Positions 25,522-51,530 of a stretch of 64,000 bases of DNA are shown piece after piece. Position numbers and translations under genes: made by a program. The stretch is taken from positions 1-64,000 of IMG/VR virus record IMGVR_UViG_3300007513_000004; one strand, given 5' to 3'. Below the pieces are notes generated by a model. The model worked only from the letters and a program-made list of their open reading frames with translations, made no database searches and was not told the origin of the DNA. The stretch's first letter is position 1. Each line of letters starts with the position of its first letter. This DNA comes from a virus.

Positions 25522-25855
25522 TTTGGTACTCCGATGTTTGTTAAGACTTATCTTTCAAATTGATTTAAAGCTAAATACATTTTACTTAGCCGGGTTGGAA
25601 TAGTCTGGAAATAAAAACTAAAATTATGTCAAGACTATTCTGTTCCAATTATAGATAAAAATAATAATATAAAATCTTGGTTGAATATCAAATTGATAAA
25701 CATTCTATTTGTCTGCCCCACTTATTGTCCGTTACAAACTGAGGACATACCGCTCCACATTGGAATAGTCGGTGCCAAACTTCTGTTAAATAATATCTTA
25801 ACAAATTTTGCTGGGTAGGATGGTAAGATAAACGATGGCCGGTTAGAATAGTATG
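25522..25855. other. Intergenic region with TTGGAATAGTC repeats
   Basis: No gene seen. TTGGAATAGTC occurs at about 25594 and 25761, a variant (GTTAGAATAGT) at 25840 and an inverted variant (AAGACTATTCTG) at 25630. May be a protein-binding array. Confidence 0.5.
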
Positions 25856-26170
25856 TTAAACTTTTGCCCGAAGGATCGGCTCGTAACTCTCAGTCATGAA
25901 GTCTGCACCAAACATTTTCTCCCAACCTAGGTATCTCGTTTTATCGGAAAAGAAAATATCTAAACTATAATGATATTCATCATTAGTTCTGTCTTCTTTA
26001 ATTATCTTATCAGTATTTAATTCAACTTCCTTCATCCCAAAGTATCTGGCTTCAACGAAATAAACATAGTAATAGTTACCATTGCTCTTTTCAAATAAAG
26101 AAATATGGCCCAGCAAATCGCCTCCGCCTCCTGGAGATAAATTTACCATCGTTCTGTCGATAAGTTTCAT
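25856..26170 (-). CDS. Unknown protein
   Basis: 104 residues. C-terminus ends RAKV because the stop lies inside a TGTTAAACTTTTGCCC boundary motif read on the opposite strand. Unknown. Confidence 0.6.
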   Translation of the reverse strand: MKLIDRTMVNLSPGGGGDLLGHISLFEKSNGNYYYVYFVEARYFGMKEVELNTDKIIKEDRTNDEYHYSLDIFFSDKTRYLGWEKMFGADFMTESYEPILRAKV

Positions 26171-26289
26171 AACAGAAGTTATGATATTATTAATAGGATG
26201 TTAAGTTTTTGCCCAGGATATTTCATAGCAGTTAAAGCTGGTCTCGAAATCGAGATCCAAGTTTAATTATCATTAGATGGGCATTTAGC

Positions 26290-26398
26290 GAGCCTTAAAG
26301 TCGCAGCTCCAGAGCTCATGAAGTTTTAAAGACTATTAGATAAGTATCTAATAAAGATTAAAATAAGGAGGCAGCCTGCCGGCACAACTTTAAGGCTC
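26290..26398. repeat. Long inverted repeat with nested hairpin
   Basis: GAGCCTTAAAGT (26290-26301) is perfectly complementary to ACTTTAAGGCTC (26387-26398). Inside, TATTAGAT-AAGT-ATCTAATA (26334-26353) is a perfect hairpin. It sits upstream of the promoter at 26418. Could be an RNA or operator structure. Confidence 0.7.
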
Positions 26399-26417
26399 TA
26401 TACATCTGGATGTATTT

Positions 26418-26446
26418 TTCATTTTTAATTTTGCATCGACTACTTC
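26418..26446 (+). promoter_or_regulatory. Phage-type promoter
   Basis: TTCATT -35, 17-bp spacer containing TTTTGCATCGAC, TACTTC -10. Precedes the 26500 gene by about 50 nt. Confidence 0.55.
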
Positions 26447-26499
26447 ATTTCGTAGGGCACAATGTCCTGCACCAACCAATGAGAAAAGGAAAAGATAAA

Positions 26500-27003
26500 A
26501 TGAGCGACAAGACTGCAATTTTTGAGAATGATAACACTGAGTCTCCTCTCCAGGTGATTCGTCAGACTATGAGCGTTTCGCTGTCCGATGGCGGCGCGGC
26601 CCAGGTTTCTTTTGCCACTAATCGTGGTAAGGGTTCCGGTGCCCAGGTTCTTGCTGTCGATGACTTTGCCGAGGTTGTGAGTACTCTCCAGGGTTACTCT
26701 GATGCTGGTATCGAAGAGCGTGAGGAAGAGCAGCTTTCTCCTGCTGATACGATTCGTCGTACCATCCGTATTGAGGATGGTGTGGTCAGCTTCCGTACCC
26801 GTTCGGGTAAGGGCGCGAAGCCTGCTAAGATTCCTGCGAGTCAGTTCGCGGAAGTCTGCGAGCTTCTGTCTGGTACTCTGTCTGCGGTGGAGGCTGCTGG
26901 TCAGTCTCTTTCTCCGGCTGATGAGACTGCTGATGAAGCAGCCGAAGAGCCTGCTATGGACGGAGACTACTCCGACTATGAGGACATGGGTGACGACGAG
27001 TAA
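26500..27003 (+). CDS. Duplicated-domain protein, copy 1 of three paralogues
   Basis: 167 residues. Two related halves: IRQTMSVSL...VSFATNRGKGSGAQVL and IRRTIRIEDGVVSFRTRSGK, each with a basic glycine/lysine loop (RGKGSG, SGKGAK), and a long acidic tail. Near-identical in plan to 34530-34934 and 37888-38328. GC-rich, biased codons versus neighbours suggest high expression. The basic loops plus acidic tail could fit a nucleic-acid-binding protein; unknown. Confidence 0.8.
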   Translation: MSDKTAIFENDNTESPLQVIRQTMSVSLSDGGAAQVSFATNRGKGSGAQVLAVDDFAEVVSTLQGYSDAGIEEREEEQLSPADTIRRTIRIEDGVVSFRTRSGKGAKPAKIPASQFAEVCELLSGTLSAVEAAGQSLSPADETADEAAEEPAMDGDYSDYEDMGDDE

Positions 27004-27020
27004 TTAATACTCTGAAACGA

Positions 27021-27060
27021 AAAAGCCCACCCGGTTTAACTTCCGGGTGGGCACTCGTTT
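27021..27060. terminator. Bidirectional-looking terminator
   Basis: GCCCACCCGG-TTTAACTT-CCGGGTGGGC stem (27025-27052) flanked by A-rich and T-rich stretches after the 27003 stop. Confidence 0.75.
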
Positions 27061-27070
27061 AATCTATATG

Positions 27071-27274
27071 TCAAACTTTTGCACGAGGATATGTTGTGCC
27101 GTCGTCTGCCTTATTCCAATTACCGCCTTCTCTTCTGGCTAATTGTGCTGGAGTTAACCTGTGTTCAGGAATGTCTTTTTCTCTATCTGCCCAACTGCGA
27201 GAAGACCCCACCGGTTTGTCCCAATCGAGAAAAAGACATTCCATCACCGATAGGTCCTGGAGCAGTTTCTTCAA
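27071..27274 (-). CDS. C-terminal part of a frameshifted LIKLA-module protein (possible)
   Basis: 67 codons in the +1 frame relative to 27183-27452. The segment DWDKPVGSSRSWADREKDIP continues to a natural-looking C-terminus ending RAKV. It probably continues the upstream protein through a +1 shift near 27235 at a run of T (minus strand TTTTT), or is a separate coupled gene. Confidence 0.5.
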   Translation of the reverse strand: MKKLLQDLSVMECLFLDWDKPVGSSRSWADREKDIPEHRLTPAQLARREGGNWNKADDGTTYPRAKV

Positions 27275-27452
27275 CCTCGCCCTCAGCCCCTACAAGCCAA
27301 CCAGGACCTTCGGCCCCTTCTACTGGGTTTCCATCAATATCTAATGGAATTCCTCCAGCAAATTTAAAAATTACTTTATCAATAACATCAGCTTCTTTCA
27401 CAAGGCCTCTGCTATCTAGTTCGCTGGCTAATTTAATTAATTCTACAATCAT
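27183..27452 (-). CDS. LIKLA-module protein, N-terminal part
   Basis: 89 residues. ELIKLASELDSRGLVKEADV is a clear module, then IDKVIFKFAGG and a proline/glycine/glutamate-rich linker. The frame ends soon after it enters the overlap with 27071-27274, suggesting +1 frameshifting or an indel. Confidence 0.6.
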   Translation of the reverse strand: MIVELIKLASELDSRGLVKEADVIDKVIFKFAGGIPLDIDGNPVEGAEGPGWLVGAEGEVEETAPGPIGDGMSFSRLGQTGGVFSQLGR

Positions 27453-27571: not shown

Positions 27572-27754
27572 TCAATCGACTTCTTTACCAAGAGTTAACT
27601 TAACTAATTGAGCTGCATTTTGCTTCAAAGTTCTAAGACCCTTTCTGGCCCTGGTTCCTGCCGCAGCATTACCAGCAGCATTCTTTGAAACATCAGTTTC
27701 TAAACTTGCAACCAACTCTTTAATCTCTTCCCATTTACTTTCTACTGTAGCCAT
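27572..27754 (-). CDS. Histone H1/HC1-like DNA-binding protein
   Basis: 60 residues. WEEIKELVASLETDVSKNAA followed by AGTRARKGLRTLKQNAAQLVK follows the HC1-like pattern (alanine-rich helix, AGTRxRK). Likely a nucleoid-associated protein that coats or compacts DNA. Ideal RBS AGGAGG. Confidence 0.7.
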   Translation of the reverse strand: MATVESKWEEIKELVASLETDVSKNAAGNAAAGTRARKGLRTLKQNAAQLVKLTLGKEVD

Positions 27755-27806
27755 AACTACCTCCTTTGTTTTTTATTATACTATTTGTCAAACTTTTGCC
27801 CAAGGG

Positions 27807-34331: not shown

Positions 34332-34360
34332 GAGGTATTCGATGCAAAAACCGTGCCAAA
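34332..34360 (-). promoter_or_regulatory. Promoter region with sigma-54-like overlap
   Basis: On the minus strand TTTTTGCATCGAA leads to TACCTC, matching the phage promoter layout; the same stretch reads TTGGCACGGTTTTTGCA, a good sigma-54 -24/-12 match. Drives the 34285 gene. Confidence 0.5.
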
Positions 34361-34387: not shown

Positions 34388-34441
34388 TGTTAAACTTTTG
34401 CCCGGGGATTATTTGATTTCTGTTTTATCATCGACTACTTT
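34388..34441 (+). promoter_or_regulatory. Phage-type promoter with boundary motif
   Basis: TGTTAAACTTTTGCCC (34388-34403), then TTGATT -35 (34413), spacer TCTGTTTTATCATCGAC and TACTTT -10 (34436-34441). Upstream of 34530. Confidence 0.65.
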
Positions 34442-34529
34442 GTATCACAAGGGGTTGAGCCCTTGACCCGCCATCGGGAAGGTGGAGAGCAGCCTCGCTG
34501 GTGTCGGGGCAAACACAAATGGAGTTGTA

Positions 34530-35034: not shown

Positions 35035-35069
35035 ACCTATATGTCAAACTTTTGCCCAGAGGGCAATGG

Positions 35070-35598: not shown

Positions 35599-35660
35599 AA
35601 ACTTGTAATTACTTTACAAATTGATTTGTAAAACTTTTGCCCAGAACTGGACATTAAAAA

Positions 35661-35689
35661 TCGAATTCTATTTTATCATCGGCTATTTT
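35661..35689 (+). promoter_or_regulatory. Phage-type promoter
   Basis: TCGAAT -35, spacer with TTTTATCATCGGC, TATTTT -10 (35684). Directly upstream of a noncoding transcript candidate. Confidence 0.55.
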
Positions 35690-35694
35690 AGAGT

Positions 35695-35866
35695 GAAGGA
35701 AAAACGAAGGCAATGCAAAGAGGCAACCAGAATGGCCGTCACGAATCATATCTGATATCCAATTAGTGTTAGAATAGATATATTCAAAGAGCGGGCTGTC
35801 AAGCGGTTACTTTACCGAAAGCGGCGCTACTGTTTAGTCCTTGAGTACCGGGGAAACTCGGTACTC
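35695..35866 (+). ncRNA. Candidate small RNA (about 170 nt)
   Basis: Bounded by a phage-type promoter at 35661-35689 and the terminator hairpin GAGTACCG-N8-CGGTACTC at 35843-35866. Only a 17-codon reading frame lies inside. Likely an untranslated RNA. Confidence 0.45.
35843..35866 (+). terminator. Rho-independent-type hairpin
   Basis: Perfect 8-bp stem with a GGGAAACT loop, followed by ATTTATCTTT. Confidence 0.6.
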
Positions 35867-35899
35867 ATTTATCTTTATTGTAAATTTTTTGCCCGAAGG

Positions 35900-36739: not shown

Positions 36740-37505
36740 TCTACAAGTTTTTCAAAAAAGTTTATAATCCCGCTCGGCGCACCCGTCTGGCCCGGTTTAC
36801 ACCGTCGCCCCGTTGATACCGTAGCGGTACTGAATAATATCGGACCCTGCATATTGGGTGAGCATATAATGAAAGGGGTGAGCATTAGCACGTCTGCCCA
36901 CTTACCTGTGACCACCAAACATATTTATATATGTATGATGTACGCACACGGGTGAGTAACACCCTGCACAGGCTTTCTCCCTGTTCTTGTCCTTTGGAGA
37001 CGCTGAACAGCAAGCAATACTTCTGACCGACATTCTGTGCTCAAGTTGGTAAGCTGTACACTTCCCCCGCTTGTTACACGTTATCATTCAACCTCATGGT
37101 AAGGTATCCTAATAACCCCTTTCGGGACGACAAAATCGTTGCCGACTTTGCCAGAGAGACTTCTGCCTTCAGAAGTTAAGTTCTATCAGATTTCTCCGAT
37201 TTACCATGACTCTTTAGTCAGTGCCCTTATCCCGTTTCCACGATGAACCTACAAGTCCGCAGATACCCTCGGCTGCACTTCCACAGTAGTATGTGGACTC
37301 ATGCCTTAGATTACTGAATGATATTCAAGGCCACTACACCTCTTAACTCATTCCCCCTCACAGCCAAGCGGCAGGTCCATATGAATAGCACCCTTCTTGG
37401 GCGGGGTTCTCTCTATCTCCGAAGAGTGCAGGAGCCGGTAACTCCACCTGCATTTAAAGACCCAAGAACGGGGGTCAGTTTAAGTTTTCAAAGAACTTTC
37501 GCTCT
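36740..37505 (-). ncRNA. Large structured noncoding RNA candidate (GOLLD/ROOL-like class)
   Basis: About 765 nt without a plausible gene, starting just after a phage promoter at 37511-37539 and running on the minus strand. Contains many perfect hairpins: ACTTCTG-CCTT-CAGAAGT (37159-37176), TGACT-CTTT-AGTCA (37207-37220), TCCACA-GTAGTA-TGTGGA (near 37271) and a GNRA-type CCCGAAAGGG on the RNA strand near 37120. Size and phage setting fit ornate large RNAs such as GOLLD or ROOL, but I cannot run a covariance search. Confidence 0.6.
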
Positions 37506-37510
37506 GTCAT

Positions 37511-37539
37511 AACATAGTTGATGTTAAAACAGAATCCAA
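37511..37539 (-). promoter_or_regulatory. Promoter of the large noncoding RNA
   Basis: Minus strand TTGGAT -35, spacer TCTGTTTTAACATCAAC (17), TATGTT -10; best match to the module consensus. Confidence 0.65.
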
Positions 37540-37587
37540 AAATTTTCGGGGAAAAGATTTACATAAATGTAAAAGTTTTGCCCCGAT

Positions 37588-38328: not shown

Positions 38329-38384
38329 TTATTCTACTCCATGCGGCATTTTTGGTTGATAGCTATATTGCTCGCCGCTACTGC

Positions 38385-38413
38385 GATATAGCCGATGCTA
38401 AAATGAAAATCGA
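38385..38413 (-). promoter_or_regulatory. Phage-type promoter (proximal)
   Basis: Minus strand TCGATT -35, TTTTAGCATCGGC spacer core, TATATC -10; 60 nt before 38328. Confidence 0.5.
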
Positions 38414-38451
38414 AAATCTCTATCTCTTTCTCTTTCTTCTCTCTCTGCTAC

Positions 38452-38480
38452 AAAGTAGTTGATGTTAAAATCAAATTGAA
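38452..38480 (-). promoter_or_regulatory. Phage-type promoter (distal)
   Basis: Minus strand TTCAAT -35, spacer TTTTAACATCAAC, TACTTT -10. Boundary motif TGTCAATCTTTTGCCC at 38492 lies between this and the plus-strand promoter at 38517. Confidence 0.55.
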
Positions 38481-38516
38481 AAATTGCCAAATGTCAATCT
38501 TTTGCCCCGTCTGTTT

Positions 38517-38545
38517 TTGAATTCTGTTTTATCATCAGATACATA
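38517..38545 (+). promoter_or_regulatory. Phage-type promoter
   Basis: TTGAAT -35, spacer TCTGTTTTATCATCAGA, TACATA -10. Upstream of 38568. Confidence 0.6.
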
Positions 38546-38567
38546 GAAACATAAGGAGTAAAGCAAT

Positions 38568-38810
38568 ATGTTCATCACAAAAACTTCAATGATTTCTGGC
38601 AGAACCAATACTCTTTGGGTTGAAGGCTTGACCCAGGATATGCTAAAGGCATGGGAAAACGGAGCCTTGATTCAAGACGCCTTGGCAGGAATTCCGCAGG
38701 AATTGCGAGAATTCGTAATGACTGGTGTCTCCCCTGACGAATGGAATAGAACATTCCCGGAAGAGGAAGAAGAGGAATGGGACGAAGATGATAAGAGCCT
38801 TCAGAACTAG
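38568..38810 (+). CDS. Small acidic unknown protein
   Basis: 80 residues with a glutamate/aspartate-rich end (PEEEEEEWDEDD). RBS AAGGAG. Unknown. Confidence 0.65.
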   Translation: MFITKTSMISGRTNTLWVEGLTQDMLKAWENGALIQDALAGIPQELREFVMTGVSPDEWNRTFPEEEEEEWDEDDKSLQN

Positions 38811-38873
38811 TAAAAGTTTTGCCCAGTGTAGGTTTGCTTCCTGATAAGAAAATATACCGAGAGGGCTGAAAAT

Positions 38874-38902
38874 TTCAACTTTATTTTAGCATCAAATACA
38901 TT
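38874..38902 (+). promoter_or_regulatory. Phage-type promoter
   Basis: TTCAAC -35, spacer with TTTTAGCATCAAA, TACATT -10. Upstream of 38920. Confidence 0.55.
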
Positions 38903-38919
38903 TAGACAGGAGAAAAGAA

Positions 38920-39249
38920 ATGGGACTTGACCAATATGGATTTGCCAGAAAAGGCGAAGAACAACTTGATATCGCCTACTGGAGAAAGCATGCCAACCTC
39001 GAAGGCTGGATGGCACGCCTTTATGTTGAAAGAGGTGGGGTAGAGGAAGAGTTCAACTGTACCGAACTACGACTTTTTGCAGATGACCTTTTAGCGTTGG
39101 AACATCAATATCAAAATCTCACCCTTGCTTCTGGCTTCTTTTGGGGAGTCTCGGAAGAGGAAGACGATGCGACGACCAGAGCATTTATTGAAGATGCTAA
39201 ATCGTTGATGGCCGATGGATACGAAATCATTTACACCTCATGGTGGTAG
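38920..39249 (+). CDS. Conserved phage protein (MGLDQY family)
   Basis: 109 residues. MGLDQYGFARKGEEQLDIAY and WRKHANLEGWMARLY follow a conserved phage protein pattern (MGLDxY ... AYWRKHxxLxGWM). Unknown function. RBS AGGAG. Confidence 0.75.
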   Translation: MGLDQYGFARKGEEQLDIAYWRKHANLEGWMARLYVERGGVEEEFNCTELRLFADDLLALEHQYQNLTLASGFFWGVSEEEDDATTRAFIEDAKSLMADGYEIIYTSWW

Positions 39250-39258
39250 GAGAATAAA

Positions 39259-39450
39259 ATGGCAAGAGGAATCAACAGGGGCCATCAACGGCGAAGCGAA
39301 ATTGCAGAACGAGTAAAAGTTCTCGCAGAGGAAAGGGCCACGCGCACACCTGCGCAACAACTGGCCTTGCTGGATAAGCGGTTGGGCAAGGACACAGGCG
39401 CACGCAAGGAGCGTGCCAAGTTGACCGCCGAAATAGAATCTAAAAAGTAA
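39259..39450 (+). CDS. Small basic protein
   Basis: 63 residues, strongly basic (RGINRGHQRRSEIAERVK). Ideal RBS AGGAG. May bind nucleic acid. Unknown. Confidence 0.6.
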   Translation: MARGINRGHQRRSEIAERVKVLAEERATRTPAQQLALLDKRLGKDTGARKERAKLTAEIESKK

Positions 39451-39470
39451 ATCTTTTGCCCGGAGCCAGA

Positions 39471-39686: not shown

Positions 39687-39754
39687 AATTAAAGTTCAGG
39701 CCCAGGAATAATTTAATTTACTTTATTCAATATGTAAAGTTTTTGCACAAGTGC

Positions 39755-40689: not shown

Positions 40690-40713
40690 TTCCTGCCTCC
40701 ATGCTTACATATG

Positions 40714-40742
40714 AATGTAAGTGATGATAAAATGAAAATCAA
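40714..40742 (-). promoter_or_regulatory. Phage-type promoter
   Basis: Minus strand TTGATT -35, spacer with TTTTATCATCACT, TACATT -10. Drives 40689. Confidence 0.6.
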
Positions 40743-40792
40743 AAATATATGTCAATTTATTGCCCGGAGGGCGGCTATAAGGAAAGCCAGAT

Positions 40793-41132: not shown

Positions 41133-41708
41133 CTAAAACTTTGAAGGGAACATATTGATAGAGGCCTGCTTTCTCGTATCCACGAACACAACGCGACTCC
41201 TGCATCCTCGACAGATATGGCCATTGGGCCTCTTTGGCATACGAACCTTCCAGCCCTCGGCGGCACAACCAGTGCAAGTCCACTTGACTTTCTTTTCCTG
41301 CTTCCGACGCAGACCTTCCGTATTGTAGTTATGACAACGATGGTTCTTATACTCTCCGGTGATGTTAGTCATCATCTGCTGGAAACGTCGGGTATGACCC
41401 TTTTCGTTATACTTGTGAACCAAGAAGGCATGAACCATTTCGTGAATCAGAGTTCTCTCAATCTTAGCAAGGTCATAGCCCTCATTTCGAAACAACTTAT
41501 CGGACAGGTCAATCTTGGTAGGCTCAAGATTTTGGCCTCTCGCATAACGGTTGGCAAAAGTTTCGACAAGCCCGCTTCGCTTGTAACGGCAGTAGCCTGC
41601 CGTAGTGGTCATACGGTTATTCCATACGACCGGGATATCGGGAATCTCGCTATTGAAATGCTCATCATTCAATCGGATAAACATTGCTCTGATGTTGGGT
41701 CTGGTCAT
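41133..41708 (-). CDS. SprT-like zinc metalloprotease
   Basis: 191 residues. LIHEMVHAFLVHKYNEKGHT holds the HExxH active site with a third ligand downstream; the C-terminal CTGCAAEGWKVRMPKRPNGH and CRGCRSR form a zinc ribbon. SprT/Spartan relatives cleave DNA-protein cross-links. RBS GGGAG. Probably supports phage DNA repair. Confidence 0.88.
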   Translation of the reverse strand: MTRPNIRAMFIRLNDEHFNSEIPDIPVVWNNRMTTTAGYCRYKRSGLVETFANRYARGQNLEPTKIDLSDKLFRNEGYDLAKIERTLIHEMVHAFLVHKYNEKGHTRRFQQMMTNITGEYKNHRCHNYNTEGLRRKQEKKVKWTCTGCAAEGWKVRMPKRPNGHICRGCRSRVVFVDTRKQASINMFPSKF

Positions 41709-41726
41709 GGTTTTCTCCCTTGTTAC

Positions 41727-41755
41727 AAAGTAACTGATGGAAAAATGAAAATGAA
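41727..41755 (-). promoter_or_regulatory. Phage-type promoter
   Basis: Minus strand TTCATT -35, TTTTTCCATCAGT spacer core, TACTTT -10. Drives the SprT-like gene. Confidence 0.6.
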
Positions 41756-41795
41756 AAAAGGCGCAAAACTTTTGCCCAACAATTTAAAAGCAAGC

Positions 41796-41830
41796 TGGCA
41801 TAGTTCTTGCTAATGCAAGAATCGTGCCAA
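41796..41830. repeat. TTGGCAC-type palindrome, copy A
   Basis: TGGCAT-N5-TTGC then GCAAG-N4-GTGCCA, an almost perfect dyad. One of five. Each half also matches a sigma-54 -24/-12 element. Confidence 0.6.
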
Positions 41831-41965
41831 TTAAATATGTTAAAGTTTTGCCCGGCAAAGTGTAGGGGCAGGCCCTACACCCAACCCCCTTACTCTTCCC
41901 TGCTACCTTTAGGATGGCACCAGGGTCGAACCACTAATGGTAGTTGCCAAATCTACACGGGGCCT

Positions 41966-42404: not shown

Positions 42405-42630
42405 ACACTCTCCTTTGTTGTTGTGCAAAAGTTTTTCATATTGTGATTAGGGTTGATGACTCTTCTTATAGAAGAATGAAACAGTGCGGCTTGCCCACGT
42501 CCTTTGCCATCTTTGGGTTCGAATCCCTTTGCTTGCGCGCAAGCAGGAAGAGCCCCTAGCTCCTCCCTTTGTATGAAAAAGTCGGCAGAGTATTGTCCCC
42601 CCGCTCTGCCAGCGGTCGATACGTCGATCT
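42405..42630 (-). other. Structured 5' leader
   Basis: About 225 nt between a promoter at 42636-42664 and the 42404 start. Contains GGCAGAG/CTCTGCC (42584 and 42604), GAGCCCCTAGCTC and CTTGCGCGCAAG hairpins. Could be a regulatory leader. Confidence 0.4.
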
Positions 42631-42635
42631 ATACA

Positions 42636-42664
42636 AATGTAGTTGATGATAAAATGAAAATGAA
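42636..42664 (-). promoter_or_regulatory. Phage-type promoter
   Basis: Minus strand spacer core TTTTATCATCAAC followed by TACATT -10. Confidence 0.6.
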
Positions 42665-42665
42665 A

Positions 42666-43001
42666 TTAGATAGACAATTCCATCCAAGCATATTCGTGTT
42701 CATCCGCTTCCAAGATACACATGTCTTCCTCGTCGTCAACAAGATTATCAGAAAGACGAGGATATGCGTAAATAATAGGATTAGGAGGTGAGGTTGGATC
42801 TCCAAGACGACGAGTAACAGAAAGACCCGCCACAAAAGTACCAACGGTAGATGCTGCCATATAATGAAAATCACGAAGATCGACAGGACCATCGGCCTCC
42901 ATAAGAGCCAAAATATCTGCTAAAGCGACTTGAACGCTATTAGCTGCACGAGATGCTTCCTCGGTCCAAGCATCCTCTCCTTCAAATAGACGACGAGCCA
43001 T
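42666..43001 (-). CDS. Unknown acidic protein
   Basis: 111 residues from MARRLFEGEDAWTEEASRAA; overlaps the upstream gene's 3' end. Strongly acidic C-terminus (DDEEDMCILEADEHEYAW). Unknown. Confidence 0.6.
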   Translation of the reverse strand: MARRLFEGEDAWTEEASRAANSVQVALADILALMEADGPVDLRDFHYMAASTVGTFVAGLSVTRRLGDPTSPPNPIIYAYPRLSDNLVDDEEDMCILEADEHEYAWMELSI

Positions 43002-43341
43002 TTTCTTCTTCCTCTTCTTCCTCATCCGCCCAAACGAATGGATTGGTTGTGTCAAGTTCGCTGTTTGCAACGAACGCTATAAATTCCGCTACTTGGTCTG
43101 GGGTTAGCCAGCCCTTAACTTGGTCGCCACCACAGTTGTGCCATTCTCCATCACTGTTCCATGCAGCAACCTCAACGCTCTTTGCTCCCCAATCATCGAC
43201 TCCCATCGGTGCATCAAAAGGCGCATTGCGTCCGCGCTCATCCGTGGGCTCGCAATAGTTGCTCGGCCCCCACTGAACGGAAACGGTATTCCCATTCGCA
43301 AAAGAAATCTGAAAGCCTTTGTTGCCCATTGCTCTAAACAT
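42982..43341 (-). CDS. Conserved phage/bacterial unknown protein
   Basis: 119 residues from MFRAMGNKGFQISFANGNTV. The MGNKGFQxxFANGxTVSVQWGP segment is a recurring signature of uncharacterised bacterial and phage proteins; VKGWLTPDQVAEFIAFV follows. Poly-Glu tail. RBS GGGAG. Confidence 0.75.
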   Translation of the reverse strand: MFRAMGNKGFQISFANGNTVSVQWGPSNYCEPTDERGRNAPFDAPMGVDDWGAKSVEVAAWNSDGEWHNCGGDQVKGWLTPDQVAEFIAFVANSELDTTNPFVWADEEEEEEENGSSSI

Positions 43342-43361
43342 TTGTTGTCTCCCTATGTGAC

Positions 43362-43390
43362 AATGTAACTGATGATAAAACAGAAATGAA
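43362..43390 (-). promoter_or_regulatory. Phage-type promoter
   Basis: Minus strand TTCATT -35, spacer TCTGTTTTATCATCAGT, TACATT -10. Drives 43341. Confidence 0.65.
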
Positions 43391-43439
43391 ATAATACCGT
43401 GCAAAAACTTAACATGTGTGTGCAAATCTTTTGCACGGT

Positions 43440-43961: not shown

Positions 43962-43988
43962 TTTCAAAACCCTCCAGGTTAGTACTCC

Positions 43989-44017
43989 TATGTAGCTGAT
44001 GATAAAACAGAGTTGAG
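43989..44017 (-). promoter_or_regulatory. Phage-type promoter (divergent pair, minus)
   Basis: Spacer TCTGTTTTATCATCAGC with TACATA -10 on the minus strand. Shares the central boundary motif GCAAATCTTTTGCCC with the plus-strand promoter at 44050. Confidence 0.6.
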
Positions 44018-44049
44018 ATTTTTATGCAAATCTTTTGCCCAGGGCTAAT

Positions 44050-44078
44050 TTGGTTTCTGTTTTATCATCAGCTACATA
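44050..44078 (+). promoter_or_regulatory. Phage-type promoter (divergent pair, plus)
   Basis: TTGGTT -35, spacer TCTGTTTTATCATCAGC, TACATA -10. Same spacer as the minus partner. Confidence 0.65.
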
Positions 44079-44188
44079 AAGACATAAGGAAAGGAACACT
44101 GTTCGCGCTGCCTCCCCATAGGGAATAAGGTGGCCGTCTGGAATCGAAAGATTAGGTTCCCAACCTTTTGACTCACAAAGGAGATTCA

Positions 44189-44530: not shown

Positions 44531-44544
44531 TTTATCAAACTTTT

Positions 44545-44629
44545 GCCCGAGTGGTGGAATCGGTATACACAGCAGACTTAAAATCTGCCGCCTTTGGGCT
44601 TGCCGGTTCGAGTCCGGCCTCGGGTACCA
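44545..44629 (+). tRNA. tRNA-Leu (anticodon TAA)
   Basis: Class II tRNA with long variable arm; acceptor GCCCGAG/CTCGGGT, T-arm GCCGGTTCGAGTCCGGC, anticodon loop CTTAAAA, CCA encoded. Its 5' GCCCGAG is the end of a TATCAAACTTTTGCCCGAG boundary motif. Confidence 0.95.
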
Positions 44630-44634
44630 AATAA

Positions 44635-44663
44635 ATCAAATCCATTTTAACATCAATTACATT
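44635..44663 (+). promoter_or_regulatory. Phage-type promoter
   Basis: Spacer core TTTTAACATCAAT, TACATT -10. Follows tRNA-Leu. Confidence 0.5.
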
Positions 44664-44785
44664 GAGTCATGGGAGGGGAGAAGTAGAACGGCAAGGCCTC
44701 CAGGCGATGAGCCAACCGCTAAATGCGGCATACGGCGTCCGCCCTAAACCAATTGCTGCGCTATTGCTTCCCCCTCCCTTTTTCT
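44664..44785 (+). ncRNA. Structured RNA / attenuator leader candidate
   Basis: GGGAGGGGAGAAG (44671) can pair with CTTCCCCCTCCC (44767-44778), followed by TTTTTCTTT. Inner hairpins CCGC-TAAAT-GCGG and GGCG-TC-CGCC. Looks like a small RNA with its own terminator, or an attenuator for the downstream 44809 gene. Confidence 0.45.
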
Positions 44786-45022: not shown

Positions 45023-45049
45023 CTTAAATGTCAAACTTTTGCCCGAGGG

Positions 45050-45310: not shown

Positions 45311-45992
45311 TCCTTCCTTCCTTATACTCTCCATGAAACCCACAACAGTGAAAGTTTATTCCTTTAATCTGCCAATCCTGCAAAACATGATGGTGACCAA
45401 AATACCAATCCACAGGCGCATGGTCACAATAGTCCATGACATTCTGGAGATTTTTGGGGGTGGGATTGGTGTTTCGGTTGAGTCTGTCAATCTCCACACA
45501 AATTGGCGCATCATGGGTTACCACAATTTCTGGCTTCGCCATTTCCATTGACTCGAAGAATGTGTTGAATTCTGCGGCGGAGGGACTTTCCTCGGCCCAC
45601 CAAGAAACTCCTTCGACTCGATGTGCCCGGTCTGTCGATTCGGCACCTCCGAAGAAAATATGCGACTTTCCATCGAGGTCGATAGCCGAACCACGGATGA
45701 CATAAAAGCAGCCTGGCGCCAACTCCACGGTTTTGTCGGAATCTTGGGCCGCCTGCAATTCAAGCCATTTAGTCCAATTTTCATGATTTCCACCGCAGGT
45801 ATACCACGCCGGGCCGGCTCGGCCTTGCCTCTCCCTCTTTGCAAAATACTTTGCGATTGGGCAATTGCTGGCCCAAAGAGCCCCAAAGTCTCCGACTTGA
45901 ACCACAATATCAACACCTGCTGCAATAGCAGCCCGGTCAATTGCAGCAACGTCATCAACCCTGCCATGAATATCGCCAACGTAAAAAATCAC
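45303..45992 (-). CDS. Calcineurin-like metallophosphoesterase
   Basis: 229 residues; GTG start with AGGAGG. YVGDIHGR (GDxHG), VVQVGDFGALW (GD), CGGNHENW (GNHE), VTHDAP and FGHHHV give the full metal-ligand set. Hydrolyses phosphate esters or nucleotides; substrate unknown. Confidence 0.9.
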   Translation of the reverse strand: MIFYVGDIHGRVDDVAAIDRAAIAAGVDIVVQVGDFGALWASNCPIAKYFAKRERQGRAGPAWYTCGGNHENWTKWLELQAAQDSDKTVELAPGCFYVIRGSAIDLDGKSHIFFGGAESTDRAHRVEGVSWWAEESPSAAEFNTFFESMEMAKPEIVVTHDAPICVEIDRLNRNTNPTPKNLQNVMDYCDHAPVDWYFGHHHVLQDWQIKGINFHCCGFHGEYKEGRNG

Positions 45993-46007
45993 TCTGCCTC
46001 CTGTTAT

Positions 46008-46036
46008 ATGGTAACCGATGGATAAATAGAAATCAA
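46008..46036 (-). promoter_or_regulatory. Phage-type promoter
   Basis: Minus strand TTGATT -35, spacer TCTATTTATCCATCGGT, TACCAT -10. Drives the phosphoesterase. Confidence 0.6.
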
Positions 46037-46067
46037 AAAGAAATGTAAAAGTTTTGCCCGGGCTTAT

Positions 46068-46096
46068 TTCAAATCTGTTTGAGCATCGGTTACTTT
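46068..46096 (+). promoter_or_regulatory. Phage-type promoter; possibly leaderless
   Basis: TTCAAA -35, spacer TCTGTTTGAGCATCGGT, TACTTT -10 (46091-46096). The next ATG at 46102 lies at the expected start site, so the mRNA may be leaderless. Confidence 0.5.
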
Positions 46097-46101
46097 ACGA
46101 T

Positions 46102-46395
46102 ATGGAAAAGAACATTCAGACTTTGGTGGAGTTGTGGCGGGATGCCGAGGCCAGGAAGTTGGAGGCCGACCGTAACGAGTTTGGTGCCAAGATGGAGGTT
46201 CGACGGGCTTTGTCCAAGTCTCTTGGAAGCTACACTGAACCGGGAACCAGTGGCGTTGGAATCTGCGCTGCGGCCATCGATATTGGTCATTGGGCCTGTG
46301 AAACGAGCCCTGTCGCGGTCTGCGTCTATGATGATTGGTCCGACCCGATTCATGACAACTGCCTTTACTGCAACAACCCAGAGGAACGAAAATGA
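46102..46395 (+). CDS. Unknown protein
   Basis: 97 residues from MEKNIQTLVELWRDAEARKL; helical N-terminus, then a cysteine-containing C-terminus (HDNCLYCNNPEERK). The start may be leaderless. Unknown. Confidence 0.6.
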   Translation: MEKNIQTLVELWRDAEARKLEADRNEFGAKMEVRRALSKSLGSYTEPGTSGVGICAAAIDIGHWACETSPVAVCVYDDWSDPIHDNCLYCNNPEERK

Positions 46396-46510: not shown

Positions 46511-46630
46511 ATGCCAATAATAAAAACTAAATTATTTACGTCCCCGCCAGCCAATCGTGGGACTGCTCCTTCCAAATTACGAACGCGAATTATAAAATCC
46601 TTTAGCGCAAACCGCCGGGCAAAAAGTTGA
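46511..46630 (+). CDS. Possible basic peptide (39 aa)
   Basis: MPIIKTKLFTSPPANRGTAP to NRRAKS; basic. Ends inside a reversed boundary motif. RBS weak. Confidence 0.3.
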   Translation: MPIIKTKLFTSPPANRGTAPSKLRTRIIKSFSANRRAKS

Positions 46631-46645
46631 CATTTATAATAAAAA

Positions 46646-46665: not shown

Positions 46666-46679
46666 GATATTTAGGCAAT

Positions 46680-47129: not shown

Positions 47130-47151
47130 TAGACACTCCTCTGTGTATGGA

Positions 47152-47180
47152 TGAGTAAACGATGGAAAAACAAAGTTGAA
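47152..47180 (-). promoter_or_regulatory. Phage-type promoter
   Basis: Minus strand TTCAAC -35, TTTTTCCATCGTT spacer core, TACTCA -10. Drives 47129. Confidence 0.5.
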
Positions 47181-47222
47181 ATAAGCATGTGCAAATCTTT
47201 TGCCCAGAGTAATATTTATCTT

Positions 47223-47363
47223 ATGAAGTGGTTAGATGACATAAAACAGAAACTATGGTGGAGAGGAATTACTGGCAAGGATCTTGCAGTACTTACGCTC
47301 ATGCCCGTATCTTTCGTAGCAATTATATTGTTTTTAATTTGGGGGCTGGCGCAAGGTATGTAA
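47223..47363 (+). CDS. Small membrane protein (46 aa)
   Basis: MKWLDDIKQKLWWRGITGKD then a hydrophobic helix; follows a boundary motif without an obvious promoter core. Confidence 0.5.
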   Translation: MKWLDDIKQKLWWRGITGKDLAVLTLMPVSFVAIILFLIWGLAQGM

Positions 47364-47378
47364 ATATTTTGCCCGGCG

Positions 47379-47582: not shown

Positions 47583-47641
47583 TTAACGATGATACTCCGG
47601 GCAAAAAATTGACACAAAGGTTGAACCAAAAGGCTCTCAGT

Positions 47642-47857
47642 CTAAAAGTCATCCCGAGAAACCTTCTTGCGGCAAGCCTTCTTGCTCTGCTCCTTACGAG
47701 CATCACCGTGAGAGCCGGAACCGTTCCGAAGAATCAGTCCAAGCATATCAAGGTTGCGAGTCTTACGTCGCTTACCCTCTCCGCGCATGGTGGCGCGAAG
47801 TTCCCGCTCCTCACGGCGGGCATTACGCTTGCGGTTCTTTCGTGCTGTCTTGGCCAT
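47642..47857 (-). CDS. Small highly basic protein
   Basis: 71 residues, lysine/arginine-rich throughout (KTARKNRKRNARREERELRA). Ideal RBS AAGGAGG. Likely nucleic-acid binding, e.g. RNA. Unknown. Confidence 0.65.
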   Translation of the reverse strand: MAKTARKNRKRNARREERELRATMRGEGKRRKTRNLDMLGLILRNGSGSHGDARKEQSKKACRKKVSRDDF

Positions 47858-47876
47858 GATAGCCTCCTTCTGTCTC

Positions 47877-47905
47877 TATGTAACCGATGGAGAAATAGAA
47901 ATCAA
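47877..47905 (-). promoter_or_regulatory. Phage-type promoter
   Basis: Minus strand TTGATT -35, TTTCTCCATCGGT, TACATA -10. Drives 47857. Confidence 0.55.
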
Positions 47906-47933
47906 AAATGTGTTGTAAAACTTTTGCCCAGGC

Positions 47934-48368
47934 TCACCGTCTAATTTTTACATTAGGTATGTCAGCAATCCGGTCAGCCAGTAAATCTCGACCATCAGGA
48001 CAAGAGCGATTCAACATAGTCAGTATAGACTGAATCTCAACCCAAAGCTGTTCTGGGAGCACAAGACAGGAGTATCCAAGATAAACCTTGACCCAATCCT
48101 CTCCCAAGCTACGAAAGGCGCAATCGGATGCAGCGTAAAGATGCTCCGGCTTTACCGAGAAGATTGCGCCCTTTACTGTAAATTCGATGGGTTCCGTATC
48201 AGTAAAGGCAAAGCCACCAGGGTCGAGGTGGGCAACATCAATAGCGGTTTTTTCCTCTGGAGTAACACTATATCGTTCAGCTATGTCATCCTCACACACG
48301 CTCGTACCAACGAGTGAAATGTGCAAACGAATTTTGGAATCTGCGGGGTAACGGATTGACTCAAGCAT
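47934..48368 (-). CDS. Unknown protein
   Basis: 144 residues; RBS AGGAGG. Beta-rich with EPIEFTVKGAIFSVKPEHLY and LVLPEQLWVEIQSILTMLN. Unknown. Confidence 0.65.
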   Translation of the reverse strand: MLESIRYPADSKIRLHISLVGTSVCEDDIAERYSVTPEEKTAIDVAHLDPGGFAFTDTEPIEFTVKGAIFSVKPEHLYAASDCAFRSLGEDWVKVYLGYSCLVLPEQLWVEIQSILTMLNRSCPDGRDLLADRIADIPNVKIRR

Positions 48369-48383
48369 ACTTCCTCCTGTGTG

Positions 48384-48412
48384 TATGTATGTGATGATAA
48401 AATAATACTGGA
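48384..48412 (-). promoter_or_regulatory. Phage-type promoter
   Basis: Minus strand spacer core TTTTATCATCACA, TACATA -10. Drives 48368. Confidence 0.5.
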
Positions 48413-48468
48413 AAAGTCTGGGGAAAAGATTGACATACGTGTGAATGTTTTGCCCAAATGGGAGTGGG

Positions 48469-48497
48469 CCCGGTGGAATTACCCCAATTCCACCGGG
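48469..48497. repeat. Perfect 12-bp hairpin
   Basis: CCCGGTGGAATT-ACCCC-AATTCCACCGGG. Lies after the P-loop kinase stop. Confidence 0.65.
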
Positions 48498-48515
48498 CGG
48501 CGTGTGCCCATCACC

Positions 48516-48986: not shown

Positions 48987-49027
48987 GCGTGTCCTCGTTG
49001 GGCAAAAAATTGTCATACTTCTCCCTT

Positions 49028-49046
49028 GGAGGCCCCCGGCACAATG
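49028..49046. repeat. GC-rich hairpin after the 49068 gene
   Basis: CCCCGGC-ACAAT-GCCGGGG just past the 49068 stop on the minus strand; possible terminator without clear T run. Confidence 0.5.
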
Positions 49047-49067
49047 CCGGGGAACCTCGGGAGGCGG

Positions 49068-49511
49068 CTACTTCTTGACGGCTGCTCCATCAAACTTGAC
49101 GTAGCCTTTGGTAGCAATCCGGGGAAGGTTATCGACAATCTCCGAATCAAACATATCGAGCATCGTCCGATACTTGACCTGCTCATCGGCGGTCAACGAG
49201 CTAACCCGCTTCTCCATCGCAGCTTTGGTCAGACCGGAAAGCCGATTCCAAAGTTCGATAATGTGGTCCGGCGCATACTCTCGCGTGCATCCAAGCTCTT
49301 GAAGGAGCATACAGATAGTCGGAACCGACCGTGCGCGGTTTGTGCCTGCGCGTGTACTGGATGGTCCTCGGGAGAGGACACCTTCCACCTCGGCGGTGAA
49401 CTTGACATGCACATCCGACTCGGGTACAAGCACGGATTCGTCGTTGCAGGATTGAAGGTTGATAACTTTGGCGAGGGCCAACTGTTCGATGGGCGAAAGG
49501 GTCTGGGACAT
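49068..49511 (-). CDS. Unknown protein
   Basis: 147 residues; helical. RSVPTICMLLQELGCTREYA and LTADEQVKYRTMLDMFDSEI. GGAG upstream. GC-rich relative to the genome. Unknown. Confidence 0.65.
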   Translation of the reverse strand: MSQTLSPIEQLALAKVINLQSCNDESVLVPESDVHVKFTAEVEGVLSRGPSSTRAGTNRARSVPTICMLLQELGCTREYAPDHIIELWNRLSGLTKAAMEKRVSSLTADEQVKYRTMLDMFDSEIVDNLPRIATKGYVKFDGAAVKK

Positions 49512-49558
49512 TGATTGTCTCTCCTAAAGAGGGTGGGTTTGTCTCCCTCTTACATCAT

Positions 49559-49587
49559 AATGTAGCCGATGATAAAACAGAATCGAA
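49559..49587 (-). promoter_or_regulatory. Phage-type promoter
   Basis: Minus strand TTCGAT -35, spacer TCTGTTTTATCATCGGC, TACATT -10. Drives 49511. Confidence 0.65.
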
Positions 49588-49639
49588 AAATGAAATGTTA
49601 AAGTTTTGCCCAGCGGTCTGCAATAATCATGCCAAAAAG

Positions 49640-49674
49640 TTGGCACAGTTCTTGCATTAGCAAGAAGCATGCCA
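49640..49674. repeat. TTGGCAC-type palindrome, copy B
   Basis: TTGGCAC-N5-TTGC then GCAAG-N4-ATGCCA; a nearly perfect dyad upstream of a boundary motif at 49684. Confidence 0.65.
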
Positions 49675-49754
49675 GTTAATTAAGTTAAAGTTTTGCCCGA
49701 TTAAATAAATAATTAACTTAATCTGGGCAAAAAGTTGACATTTAAAACAAATAA

Positions 49755-50022
49755 AAAGAAGGGGGGCAAAGGCCCCTCTGGGTAGCGCGGCTTGTGTGCA
49801 AAACAGCAGCAGGGGAGCTTGCTCTTTGAGAGGTGTGTGGTTCGCGACCCGAACAAATCTCGTGACATCCCTTGGCTTTTCAGTTTGCCTTGCCTTCCCA
49901 GAGGGGCATAGCTGCTCATTACTTTACCGGGGGTCTATCCTGTACCCCGAACAGTTACACGGTATGAGTCAACCGTGCGGTGTATAACTAGTATTCCACC
50001 GTTTCTGAATCTCTCTCCTTGT
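49755..50022 (-). ncRNA. Structured noncoding RNA candidate
   Basis: Minus-strand transcript from the promoter at 50028-50056. Includes CACGGT-N8-ACCGTG, an 11-bp long-range stem GCCCCTCTGGG/CCCAGAGGGGC (49772-49782 with 49897-49907) and a terminator-like GGGGC-N4-GCCCC with TTCTTTTT just after. The same AGAGGGG strand can pair either way, like a terminator/antiterminator switch. No credible gene. Confidence 0.5.
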
Positions 50023-50027
50023 GTTCT

Positions 50028-50056
50028 AAAGTAATTGATGCAAAAATCGAAATGAA
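50028..50056 (-). promoter_or_regulatory. Phage-type promoter of RNA candidate
   Basis: Minus strand TTCATT -35, TTTTTGCATCAAT, TACTTT -10. Confidence 0.55.
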
Positions 50057-50092
50057 AAACATATTTGCAAAGTTTTTGCCCATACGTAAGGC

Positions 50093-50128
50093 TTGGCACA
50101 CTTTTTGCTAATGCAAGAAACATGCCAA
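50093..50128. repeat. TTGGCAC-type palindrome, copy C
   Basis: TTGGCACACTTTTTGC facing GCAAGAAACATGCCAA. Confidence 0.65.
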
Positions 50129-50164
50129 CAAACATGTCAATGTTTTGCCCTTGGGCAAAAGTTT
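50129..50164. repeat. Head-to-head boundary motifs
   Basis: TGTCAATGTTTTGCCC, TT, then GGGCAAAAGTTTGACA: two copies of the 16-bp motif in opposite orientation form a near-perfect dyad. Confidence 0.7.
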
Positions 50165-50183
50165 GACACAAAGCATAAAAGAA

Positions 50184-50203
50184 GGCCGGGCATATGCCCG
50201 GCC
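50184..50203 (-). terminator. Terminator of ArdC gene
   Basis: GGCCGGGCATATGCCCGGCC, perfect palindromic stem, followed on the minus strand by TTCTTTTATG. Confidence 0.75.
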
Positions 50204-50234
50204 TTGCGTATGGCCCCACTCGGGGCGTCTGGCC

Positions 50235-51176
50235 CTACTTGCGCTGGCCCTCCCCCTTGTCGATGAGGTAGCGCATGACCTTGCCCGCTTCATTCGCGGC
50301 CCGCTGAATCACGGTAGGGTCATCCTTGAGAGCCTTCCGCCAGTTGGCAAGGTAGGCCACATGGTTGTCCATCAAACCCTCTCGCTTGACTCCCAGATAG
50401 GCGCATGTGAACGCCGCGCCAATCTCGGCAACCAACTCCTCGTAAGCATACGCCTCCGAGCCGAAGCCCGTGAACTTGACGATGCCATCCCGGTTGAGTC
50501 GGTCCTTTGCACCTGACCAGTGGGCGTGCTCATGGATGGTAGTGGCCCAAAAATCAGCAACAGTGGTGAAGGCTCCGGCCTCGGGCACCATGATGTAGTC
50601 CTCGCGAGGGGAGTAGAAAGCACGCCCGCCGCCCGTGCGGAAATCCGCGTCGATACCTTTGACAAGTGCAGCCGCCGCCTCATGGCCCACCTTTGGGTCA
50701 ACCTCTGAAATCTCGGCAGACGGTAGGGGGTTCGTCGTTTGCTGGTTGTTGAAAGTGTACGAGCTTCCAAATCCGATGAACTTTGTGGACCCCTTGACCA
50801 AGAGACTCGCGCCACAGGGCTTGCACTTTTTTGCAAATCCACATGGGCGGCCACAACTGTTGCAGGCCAGCTTCGGGAAGAAAATAGGAGTCCCCTTCTC
50901 GCCTTTGCGCACGTAGTTGCCGCTCTTTTGCCACTGGCCAAACCCGGCCCAACGGTTGTCACCAAACTGAACCCCGGCCATCATCAGCATAAAGCCATTG
51001 AAGTTTCCGCCGTAGGCGCGGCCCGTCAGGATGTTGATTGGCATCCCACCAGCAAGGGACCTATCCCACGGCATAATCCAAGGGGTGCCGTCCTCGGGCG
51101 GGTTGTCGAGGGCTTCGATAATCTGCGCGGCTATACGCTCGCACGTCTCTTGAATCTTGTCGTTGGGCTTGCTCAT
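50235..51176 (-). CDS. ArdC-like antirestriction protein
   Basis: 313 residues. N-terminal IAAQIIEALDNPPEDGTPW and MPINILTGRAYGGNFNGFM match the ArdC N-domain; a Cys-rich insert CNSCGRPCGFAKKCKPCG; then TTIHEHAHWSGAKDRLNRDG is the HExxH zincin-like site with YEELVAEIGAAF as third-ligand helix. Protects incoming DNA from host restriction. RBS GGAGG. Confidence 0.92.
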   Translation of the reverse strand: MSKPNDKIQETCERIAAQIIEALDNPPEDGTPWIMPWDRSLAGGMPINILTGRAYGGNFNGFMLMMAGVQFGDNRWAGFGQWQKSGNYVRKGEKGTPIFFPKLACNSCGRPCGFAKKCKPCGASLLVKGSTKFIGFGSSYTFNNQQTTNPLPSAEISEVDPKVGHEAAAALVKGIDADFRTGGGRAFYSPREDYIMVPEAGAFTTVADFWATTIHEHAHWSGAKDRLNRDGIVKFTGFGSEAYAYEELVAEIGAAFTCAYLGVKREGLMDNHVAYLANWRKALKDDPTVIQRAANEAGKVMRYLIDKGEGQRK

Positions 51177-51224
51177 GGTGGTCCTCCGGGGACTAAAGCG
51201 GGTATTGACGGGGGCTTACATACA

Positions 51225-51253
51225 TGAGTAACCGATGCTCAAATAGAAATGAA
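51225..51253 (-). promoter_or_regulatory. Phage-type promoter
   Basis: Minus strand TTCATT -35, TTTGAGCATCGGT, TACTCA -10. Drives ardC-like gene. Confidence 0.55.
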
Positions 51254-51259
51254 AAAACC

Positions 51260-51530
51260 AATTGCCAATCTTTTGCCCAGACAGGTGTGCTTCTTTATGC
51301 AAAAACCATGCCAACCCAATTGACAAAGTTTTGCCCAGACTCAGACGCATTTCCTTGCAAGAACCATGCCAATGTGTATGAAAATGTTTTGCCCAAATGT
51401 AAAAACATATTTTACAAAACCTCGACAGAGGTTGGCATGGTTCTTGCTAATGCAAGAACTGTGCCATATGTTATGCAAATGTTTTGCCCAATGCTTTGGG
51501 CAAAAAAATGACATGTGTACGAAAATACAC
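51260..51530. repeat. Cluster of boundary motifs and dyads
   Basis: Four TTTTGCCC motifs (about 51266, 51319, 51376, 51475) and one inverted copy (51487), with half-sites of the TTGGCAC palindrome between them. No gene seen in this stretch. Confidence 0.65.
51432..51466. repeat. TTGGCAC-type palindrome, copy D
   Basis: TTGGCATGGTTCTTGC facing GCAAGAACTGTGCCA. Confidence 0.65.

Follow-up and report, generated by a model that had tools for sequence, protein, structure and literature searches.

A repeated 16-base motif as a predicted protein-recognition site in the accessory-gene region of a jumbo-phage group

The R1 motif and its placement

Examining the first 64 kb of the 223,402-bp virus record IMGVR_UViG_3300007513_000004 (phage A; these 64 kb, the whole stretch analyzed, are the window below), we found that a 16-base motif, R1 (TGTNAAANTTTTGCCC), is repeated throughout a region of accessory genes and stands at the edges of transcription units. 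With moderate confidence we regard R1 as the predicted recognition site of a sequence-specific protein that punctuates the accessory-gene region of a group of jumbo phages. Judged from sequence, R1 belongs to the promoter architecture, since its position immediately upstream of the promoter core, a repeat particular to each phage, is fixed. This fixed spacing, the arrangement of R1 in arrays, the boxes shared by divergent promoters and the drift of the motif as a set between phages indicate a trans-acting DNA-binding protein, which is probably encoded by the phage.

Allowing up to two mismatches, R1 matched the window 46 times, while 100 dinucleotide shuffles of the window averaged 1.18 matches and never gave more than 4, indicating that the motif reported in an earlier note on this DNA as repeated about 35-40 times is real. 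At one mismatch or less, all 27 matches in the 223-kb record fell within 25.8-51.3 kb and the reversed pattern had none; overall, the R1 sites of phage A are restricted to about 25.8-52.4 kb. We count about 43-46 sites in the window as genuine; the weak matches at 32869 and 33552, both within coding sequence, and at 42423 are probably due to chance. Every position that the note had listed (25 of 25 on the plus strand and 6 of 6 on the minus strand) coincided with a weight-matrix match on the strand named, within 8-12 bp. The strand split was 34 plus to 13 minus among 47 weight-matrix sites of the region, so the orientation, described as almost always the same, is biased, yet more weakly than claimed. 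Refinement of weight matrices over the record revealed two further repeats that accompany R1, namely R2, a promoter-like element, and R3.

Five related jumbo phages (B to F) have the R1 system, each with its own R1 version and its own repeated promoter. Phage B (L013/L014/L020) was obtained by a motif scan of IMG/VR contigs, and C (L027), D (L031/L033), E (L032) and F (L034/L035) by a protein search with a multi-copy gene family described below. R1 reads TGTAAAACTATTGCCC in C, TGTAAATNNTTTGCCC in D, TGTAAACTTTTTCTCCC in E and TGTNAANNTTTTGCCC in F, and it co-varies as a set between phages, including TTTTTCTCCC in phage E. Across the six phages we found 218 R1 sites; every reversed-sequence control gave 0-1. 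Only 4 sites lay within the 37 kb of genes that have cross-phage homologues (0.11/kb, compared with 1.38/kb over the whole regions), contradicting an equal frequency in coding sequence and agreeing with the earlier placement of the sites at transcription-unit edges, after stop codons or terminators and upstream of promoters. In these counts the gene calls are our own, promoter cores are pattern matches, a site common to two neighbouring genes is counted for each, and sites within one phage are not independent.

R2 is a T-rich promoter-like repeat of about 40 bp with the core TTTTATCATCRNYTACAT; a ribosome-binding site usually comes after it. Phage A has 24 good copies (weight matrix over the record); 16 of these are on the minus strand, at odds with the view that R1 mainly precedes plus-strand promoters. 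A promoter core, either R2 or its counterpart in the other phages, was present within 60 bp of 72 of the 218 R1 sites. The R1 box stands 22-28 bp upstream of the core and is mostly reversed, in phage A being found in either orientation. From reversed boxes the distance to the core is mostly 22-27 bp in A, 27-28 bp in B (7 of 7), 23 bp in C and 25-26 bp in most of D; from forward boxes it is mostly 23-25 bp in A and 39-41 bp in B (5 of 5), about one helical turn more. Reversed boxes at 20-30 bp numbered 10 in A, 7 in B, 7 in D and 3 in C, where random shifting of the promoters predicts 0.27, 0.15, 0.33 and 0.14, respectively; forward boxes at this distance in A numbered 7, with 0.21 expected. 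Furthermore, at 38492, 44025 and 46044 two divergent R2 promoters have one R1 between them, and tandem copies recur with a period of 34 bp in phage D and a spacing of 58 bp in phage A. These tandem arrays look like cooperative binding sites.

The remaining 146 sites are more than 60 bp from any promoter core. Where such a site is the nearest one downstream of a gene, it points with the gene in 29 cases and against it in 7, consistent with the stoperator-like logic that the earlier note had proposed. Strong terminator-like hairpins were found at the 5' (TGT) side of 35 of the 146 sites and at the 3' (GCCC) side of 17, and R1 is also present between convergent genes, in spacers that are not expected to hold a promoter. 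In one shared gene family, a forward R1 lies 50-110 bp past the stop codon in 13 of 17 copies, from phages whose R1 versions differ. R1 sites upstream of genes are mostly 40-160 nt from the start codon.

Possible roles of R1

In the mechanism we propose, a protein would dock on R1. At promoters it would control initiation, the place upstream of the core suiting an activator or an upstream operator, and behind terminators the bound protein would block residual read-through in a stoperator-like or insulator-like manner. Such insulation would keep neighbouring one-gene units independent where gene order and orientation are reshuffled. A stronger version, to which we give little credence as it stands, is that one and the same protein, reading a co-evolving site of 16-17 bp, drives transcription from the accessory promoters and also halts it in a polar manner after each unit, constituting an undescribed jumbo-phage insulation system; if true, genes could be reordered and flipped as modules that are self-contained and insulated. 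The small accessory genes of jumbo phages number in the dozens and lie in regions that reshuffle rapidly, which raises the question of how a newly moved gene is expressed without disturbing its neighbours. R1 occurs throughout the group and flanks many units, and its distance to the promoter is maintained even as its sequence changes, which points towards a shared punctuation factor. Pull-down with R1 DNA would offer a direct route to this factor, and the motif would serve to predict where accessory genes begin and end in uncultured phages.

Several observations weigh against a punctuating protein. The minor strand holds 28% of the R1 sites in the window, sites upstream of genes face either way (30 reverse and 19 forward; P = 0.15), and many promoter cores found with a loose pattern have no R1 nearby. 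The stoperators of mycobacteriophage L5 are spread over a temperate phage genome, whereas R1 is confined to 26 kb of accessory genes. In the phages studied, no R1-binding protein was identified, and the 223-kb record, itself possibly incomplete, has no member of the integrase family PF00589.

That absence of a tyrosine-recombinase gene also weighs against a rather unlikely alternative, in which R1 is a recombination site at cassette boundaries (a terminal inverted repeat, an att-like site or a short homology linker) for the exchange, inversion or duplication of promoter-gene-terminator units. Many units do have R1 at both ends, often with TGT inward and GCCC outward; the homologous region genes of A and B are reordered and some are inverted between collinear flanks; a multi-copy gene family is present in all six phages; and the promoters, R1 and R3 are dispersed repeats able to pair. 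However, no breakpoint was caught at R1 in the phages compared, and near-identical contigs of A and of B, of which only a few overlap and to a small extent, were free of cassette gain or loss. In the within-phage duplicates of F (160319/171445) and E (9907/15035), the similarity begins 25-35 bp outside R1 and not inside it. Nor does recombination predict fixed promoter spacing, periodic arrays or boxes common to divergent promoters. As for integron attC sites or dif-like arms, judged by eye, their defining structure is lacking.

The promoter-proximal sites could also be explained if R1 were itself an extended -35 or UP-like element within a phage early promoter that the host RNA polymerase reads, the copies behind terminators being relics or orphan promoters. 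In phage A the reversed R1 keeps a uniform distance to the R2 downstream of it and ends in TTGACA, TTTACA or TTAACA, placing TTNACA about 17 nt before TTTTAT. Yet forward boxes in A, with GCCC next to the promoter, stand at an equal distance, the spacing in B (27-28 or 39-41 bp) does not fit -35/-10 elements, phage D has tandem arrays, and the 146 sites distant from any core include those between convergent genes; we therefore find this explanation unlikely. Reb1, TTF-I and Tus provide models for protein-bound polar terminators and fork barriers, and R1 might be such a site, acting chiefly to stop or hinder elongation or replication and, near promoters, to shield them from read-through. In keeping with this, R1 points forward behind genes, has hairpins on its 5' side, and is found in convergent spacers as well as immediately before promoters. 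Upstream sites, however, are more often reversed, so that a block of strict polarity would leave the promoter exposed to read-through from upstream, and no R1-binding protein is known, leaving this a very improbable account. Similarity due to chance or to the low complexity of AT-rich terminator tails was suggested by some R1 sites lying behind T-rich tails, but can practically be dismissed: it is refuted by shuffled and reversed controls near zero, GCCC is nearly invariant, and the 72 promoter-associated sites are rarely beside a hairpin. Given these sites, and given that the motif remains recognizable in five other phages among differing flanks, the similarity is not merely that of shared terminator ends.

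Companion repeats, related phages and other features

R3 (TTGGCAYNNTTYTTGCW; TTGGCAYR-N4-TTGCW) has 14 copies, compared with 0.09 expected, of which ten are paired as five head-to-head dyads. It occurs at 34343-52431 in the window and in L013 and L021, belongs to phages A and B, with one copy in C, and is mostly absent from phages C-F, indicating that it is not essential to the R1 system. At 51.2-51.5 kb R3 and R1 form a long-spacer array in the order R3, 19 nt, reversed R1, 6 nt, R3, 19 nt, reversed R1, R2 and gene. Compared with the -24/-12 consensus and spacing of sigma54 promoters, as known in general, R3 has the GG-N10-GC core in a TGGCAY...TTGC context and differs in being often a head-to-head dyad; these frequent dyads would suit a palindromic operator equally well. 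A phage-borne RpoN DNA-binding domain or sigma54 activator was not found in the phage A record. R3 fits the sigma54 consensus far better than R1 does: reversed TGCAAA variants of R1 (GGGCAAAAGATTTGCA) align with -24/-12, yet most copies have no GC at -12, and we rejected R1 as a sigma54 promoter. The positions of all three repeats are given in Table 1.

Table 1. Positions of the repeats and of associated features. Coordinates refer to the window unless a contig is named; R2 and R1 partners in the remarks are given by their first position.
Feature	Position	Strand	Remark
R1	25854..25869	+	across stop codon of minus gene 25856-26149
R1	26199..26214	+	divergent spacer
R1	27069..27084	+	behind terminator of gene 26479-27003 (+); convergent spacer
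R1	27786..27801	+	upstream of minus gene 27572-27754 (Hc1-like)
R1	34388..34403	+	promoter R2 34404 (+)
R1	35042..35057	+	behind terminator of gene 34530-34934 (+); convergent spacer
R1	35627..35642	+	upstream of R2 35652 (+)
R1	35879..35894	+	behind terminator-like hairpin
R1	37548..37563	-	promoter R2 37490 (-)
R1	37568..37583	+	head-to-head with R1 37548
R1	38492..38507	+	common to divergent promoters R2 38431 (-) and 38508 (+)
R1	38809..38824	+	overlaps stop codon of gene 38568-38810 (+)
R1	39446..39461	+	overlaps stop codon of gene 39259-39450 (+)
R1	39733..39748	+	
R1	40750..40765	+	promoter R2 40693 (-)
R1	41762..41777	+	promoter R2 41706 (-)
R1	41838..41853	+	adjoins R3 dyad
R1	43399..43414	-	promoter R2 43341 (-)
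R1	43421..43436	+	head-to-head with R1 43399
R1	44025..44040	+	common to divergent promoters R2 43968 (-) and 44041 (+)
R1-like	44533..44548	+	between two tRNA genes; its GCCC is the 5' end of the tRNA-Leu gene
R1	45029..45044	+	behind terminator of gene 44662-44988 (+); convergent spacer
R1	46044..46059	+	common to divergent promoters R2 45987 (-) and 46059 (+)
R1	46617..46632	-	behind terminator of minus gene 46680-47129
R1	47190..47205	+	promoter R2 47131 (-)
R1	47359..47374	+	immediately past 3' end of minus gene 47379-47582
R1	47599..47614	-	behind minus gene 47642-47857
R1	47914..47929	+	promoter R2 47856 (-)
R1	48420..48435	-	promoter R2 48363 (-)
R1	48440..48455	+	head-to-head with R1 48420
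R1	49000..49015	-	behind terminator of minus gene 49068-49511
R1	49596..49611	+	promoter R2 49538 (-)
R1	49683..49698	+	adjoins R3 dyad
R1	49725..49740	-	behind minus-strand terminator
R1	50066..50081	+	promoter R2 50007 (-)
R1	50135..50150	+	adjoins R3 dyad
R1	50153..50168	-	behind terminator of ArdC-like gene 50235-51176 (-)
R1	51263..51278	+	promoter R2 51204 (-)
R1	51321..51336	+	R3/R1 array, 58-bp period
R1	51379..51394	+	R3/R1 array
R1	51474..51489	+	R3/R1 array
R1	51498..51513	-	downstream of minus gene 51624-52322
R1	52364..52379	+	promoter R2 52318 (-)
R2	26409..26467	+	
R2	34404..34462	+	
R2	35652..35710	+	
R2	37490..37548	-	upstream of large non-coding RNA
R2	38364..38422	-	
R2	38431..38489	-	
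R2	38508..38566	+	
R2	38865..38923	+	
R2	40693..40751	-	
R2	41706..41764	-	
R2	42615..42673	-	
R2	43341..43399	-	
R2	43968..44026	-	
R2	44041..44099	+	
R2	44626..44684	+	
R2	45987..46045	-	
R2	46059..46117	+	
R2	47131..47189	-	
R2	47856..47914	-	
R2	48363..48421	-	
R2	49538..49596	-	
R2	50007..50065	-	
R2	51204..51262	-	
R2	52318..52376	-	
R3 single	34343..34359	-	sigma54-like TTGGCAC-N5-TTGCA
R3 head-to-head dyad	41795..41830		
R3 single	49619..49635	-	
R3 head-to-head dyad	49640..49675		
R3 head-to-head dyad	50093..50128		
R3 single	51298..51314	-	
R3 single	51356..51372	-	
R3 head-to-head dyad	51432..51467		
R3 head-to-head dyad	52395..52431		
Duplicated small-protein family member	26479-27003	+	
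Duplicated small-protein family member	34530-34934	+	
Duplicated small-protein family member	37888-38328	-	
Proteins with the LIKLANELDSRGLVKEADxID N-terminus	53049-61743, 22682-23458, 27183-27452		also in phages B, D, E, F
Copy of the ~550-nt RNA	L027:8878-9470		
Copy of the ~550-nt RNA	L037:2680-3290		
Copy of the ~550-nt RNA	L038:550-1150		
Copy of the ~550-nt RNA	L040:2850-3450		

Phage B has R1 and R3 together with a different promoter repeat. No close relatives were found among annotated phages, a search of bacterial genomes for a host yielded no relative, and a pattern of abutting R1 copies had no matches in viral contigs. One further phage, L026, picked up by the R2 pattern, proved unrelated. 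The multi-copy family used in the protein search consists of small proteins with an internal duplication (SFATNRGKGSGAQ / RSGKGAKPAK) and has three members in each of the six phages. We considered this family as the R1-binding protein and rejected it, the resemblance of its predicted fold to the nucleic-acid-binding proteins Pur-alpha and PC4/Sub1 being weak and insignificant (E-values 0.2-0.9); its presence in four of the phages is no evidence for R1 binding, as those phages were found with it. An 84-aa protein encoded at 33703-33957 (-) is kept in all six phages and has a sub-threshold match to the RNA-polymerase-binding domain of SutA (E-value 0.018), making it a possible transcription modulator.

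Among the neighbouring genes, 27572-27754 (-), which has R1 directly upstream, encodes a 60-aa histone H1-like protein (Hc1, E-value 2e-12) with relatives in C, D and F, and 36048-36728 (-) encodes a member of the Gene product 88 family (PF17338, E-value 1.5e-25) with relatives in C and D. Many proteins, mostly of a cluster at 53-62 kb, have a near-identical N-terminus of about 30 residues (LIKLANELDSRGLVKEADxID) that is possibly a shared sorting or cleavage leader. The window also carries a phage-borne tmRNA at 1878-2227 (-), with the tag ANNNYYYEPVALAA, and nine tRNAs. On contig L022 of phage B, multi-copy degenerate repeats of several hundred bp lie at about 86.1-88.0 kb, with related copies near 70.2 and 73.8 kb.

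The R2 promoter at 37490 (-) reads into a segment of about 550 nt without a long open reading frame (36900-37475, minus strand), which shares 72% identity with phage C across 567 bp. A 25-mer of this segment is also present in L037, L038, L040 and L041, at loci without R1. In a common fold of five distinct sequences, 69 of 163 predicted pairs were changed on both sides, and the single-sequence fold gave z = -3.0. The segment includes the invariant stretch CTTGTAGGTTCATCGTGGAAACGGG and matched no Rfam family; it is a conserved non-coding RNA with a predicted structure.

Comparison with known systems

A close functional parallel is provided by the Cluster A mycobacteriophages (L5, Bxb1, Trixie; PMC6550527), whose stoperators comprise operators at promoters as well as sites away from promoters at which elongation is blocked. 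These phages have 20-50 short asymmetric sites each, some in promoters and most outside them, mostly oriented with transcription and with a consensus that drifts from phage to phage, as R1 differs among phages A-F. The orientation feature is found in R1 at the downstream non-promoter sites (29:7) but not at the upstream sites (19 forward, 30 reverse). R1 differs also in the fixed place of its box upstream of promoters, in both orientations, and in that no repressor or temperate functions were found in this uncultured jumbo-phage group. We therefore treat the likeness as a functional analogy and not as proof of membership.

Reshuffled regions with repeated elements between small genes are also known from T4-like phages, in whose hyperplastic regions promoter early stem-loops (PeSLs; Arbiol 2010, Comeau 2014, as cited in PMC4503421) are promoter/stem-loop composites that mediate shuffling. 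The accessory region taken as a whole is reminiscent of these hyperplastic regions, and the repeated promoter/terminator composites between small genes recall the arrangement seen here, whereas the common element here is a separate, conserved 16-mer that is neither promoter nor hairpin; here too we see a likeness and no proof of membership. Promoters and terminators flank R1, often not as a single composite, and among the few proteins compared these phages had no T4-like match. The lambdoid boundary or linker sequences (mentioned in PMC3029335) likewise place a short conserved sequence at module junctions, with the difference that no exchange event was observed at R1. The 17-bp dyad repeats of Cluster O (Corndog; PMC4351075) have more than 30 copies, many of them intergenic and probably bound by a regulator, and deletions between copies have been reported; they are perfect dyads without orientation, one third of them in genes, whereas R1 is asymmetric and avoids genes. 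The SAS/ESAS elements of Cluster K (PMC3203893) share with R1 the character of a short oriented repeat that is confined to non-structural genes and sometimes overlaps the upstream stop codon, but SAS lies 3-7 bp before start codons and contains the ribosome-binding site, and R1 is mostly far upstream of genes or behind them. Operators and stoperators at unit boundaries are a known concept; the pattern seen here is strong and spans a whole phage group.

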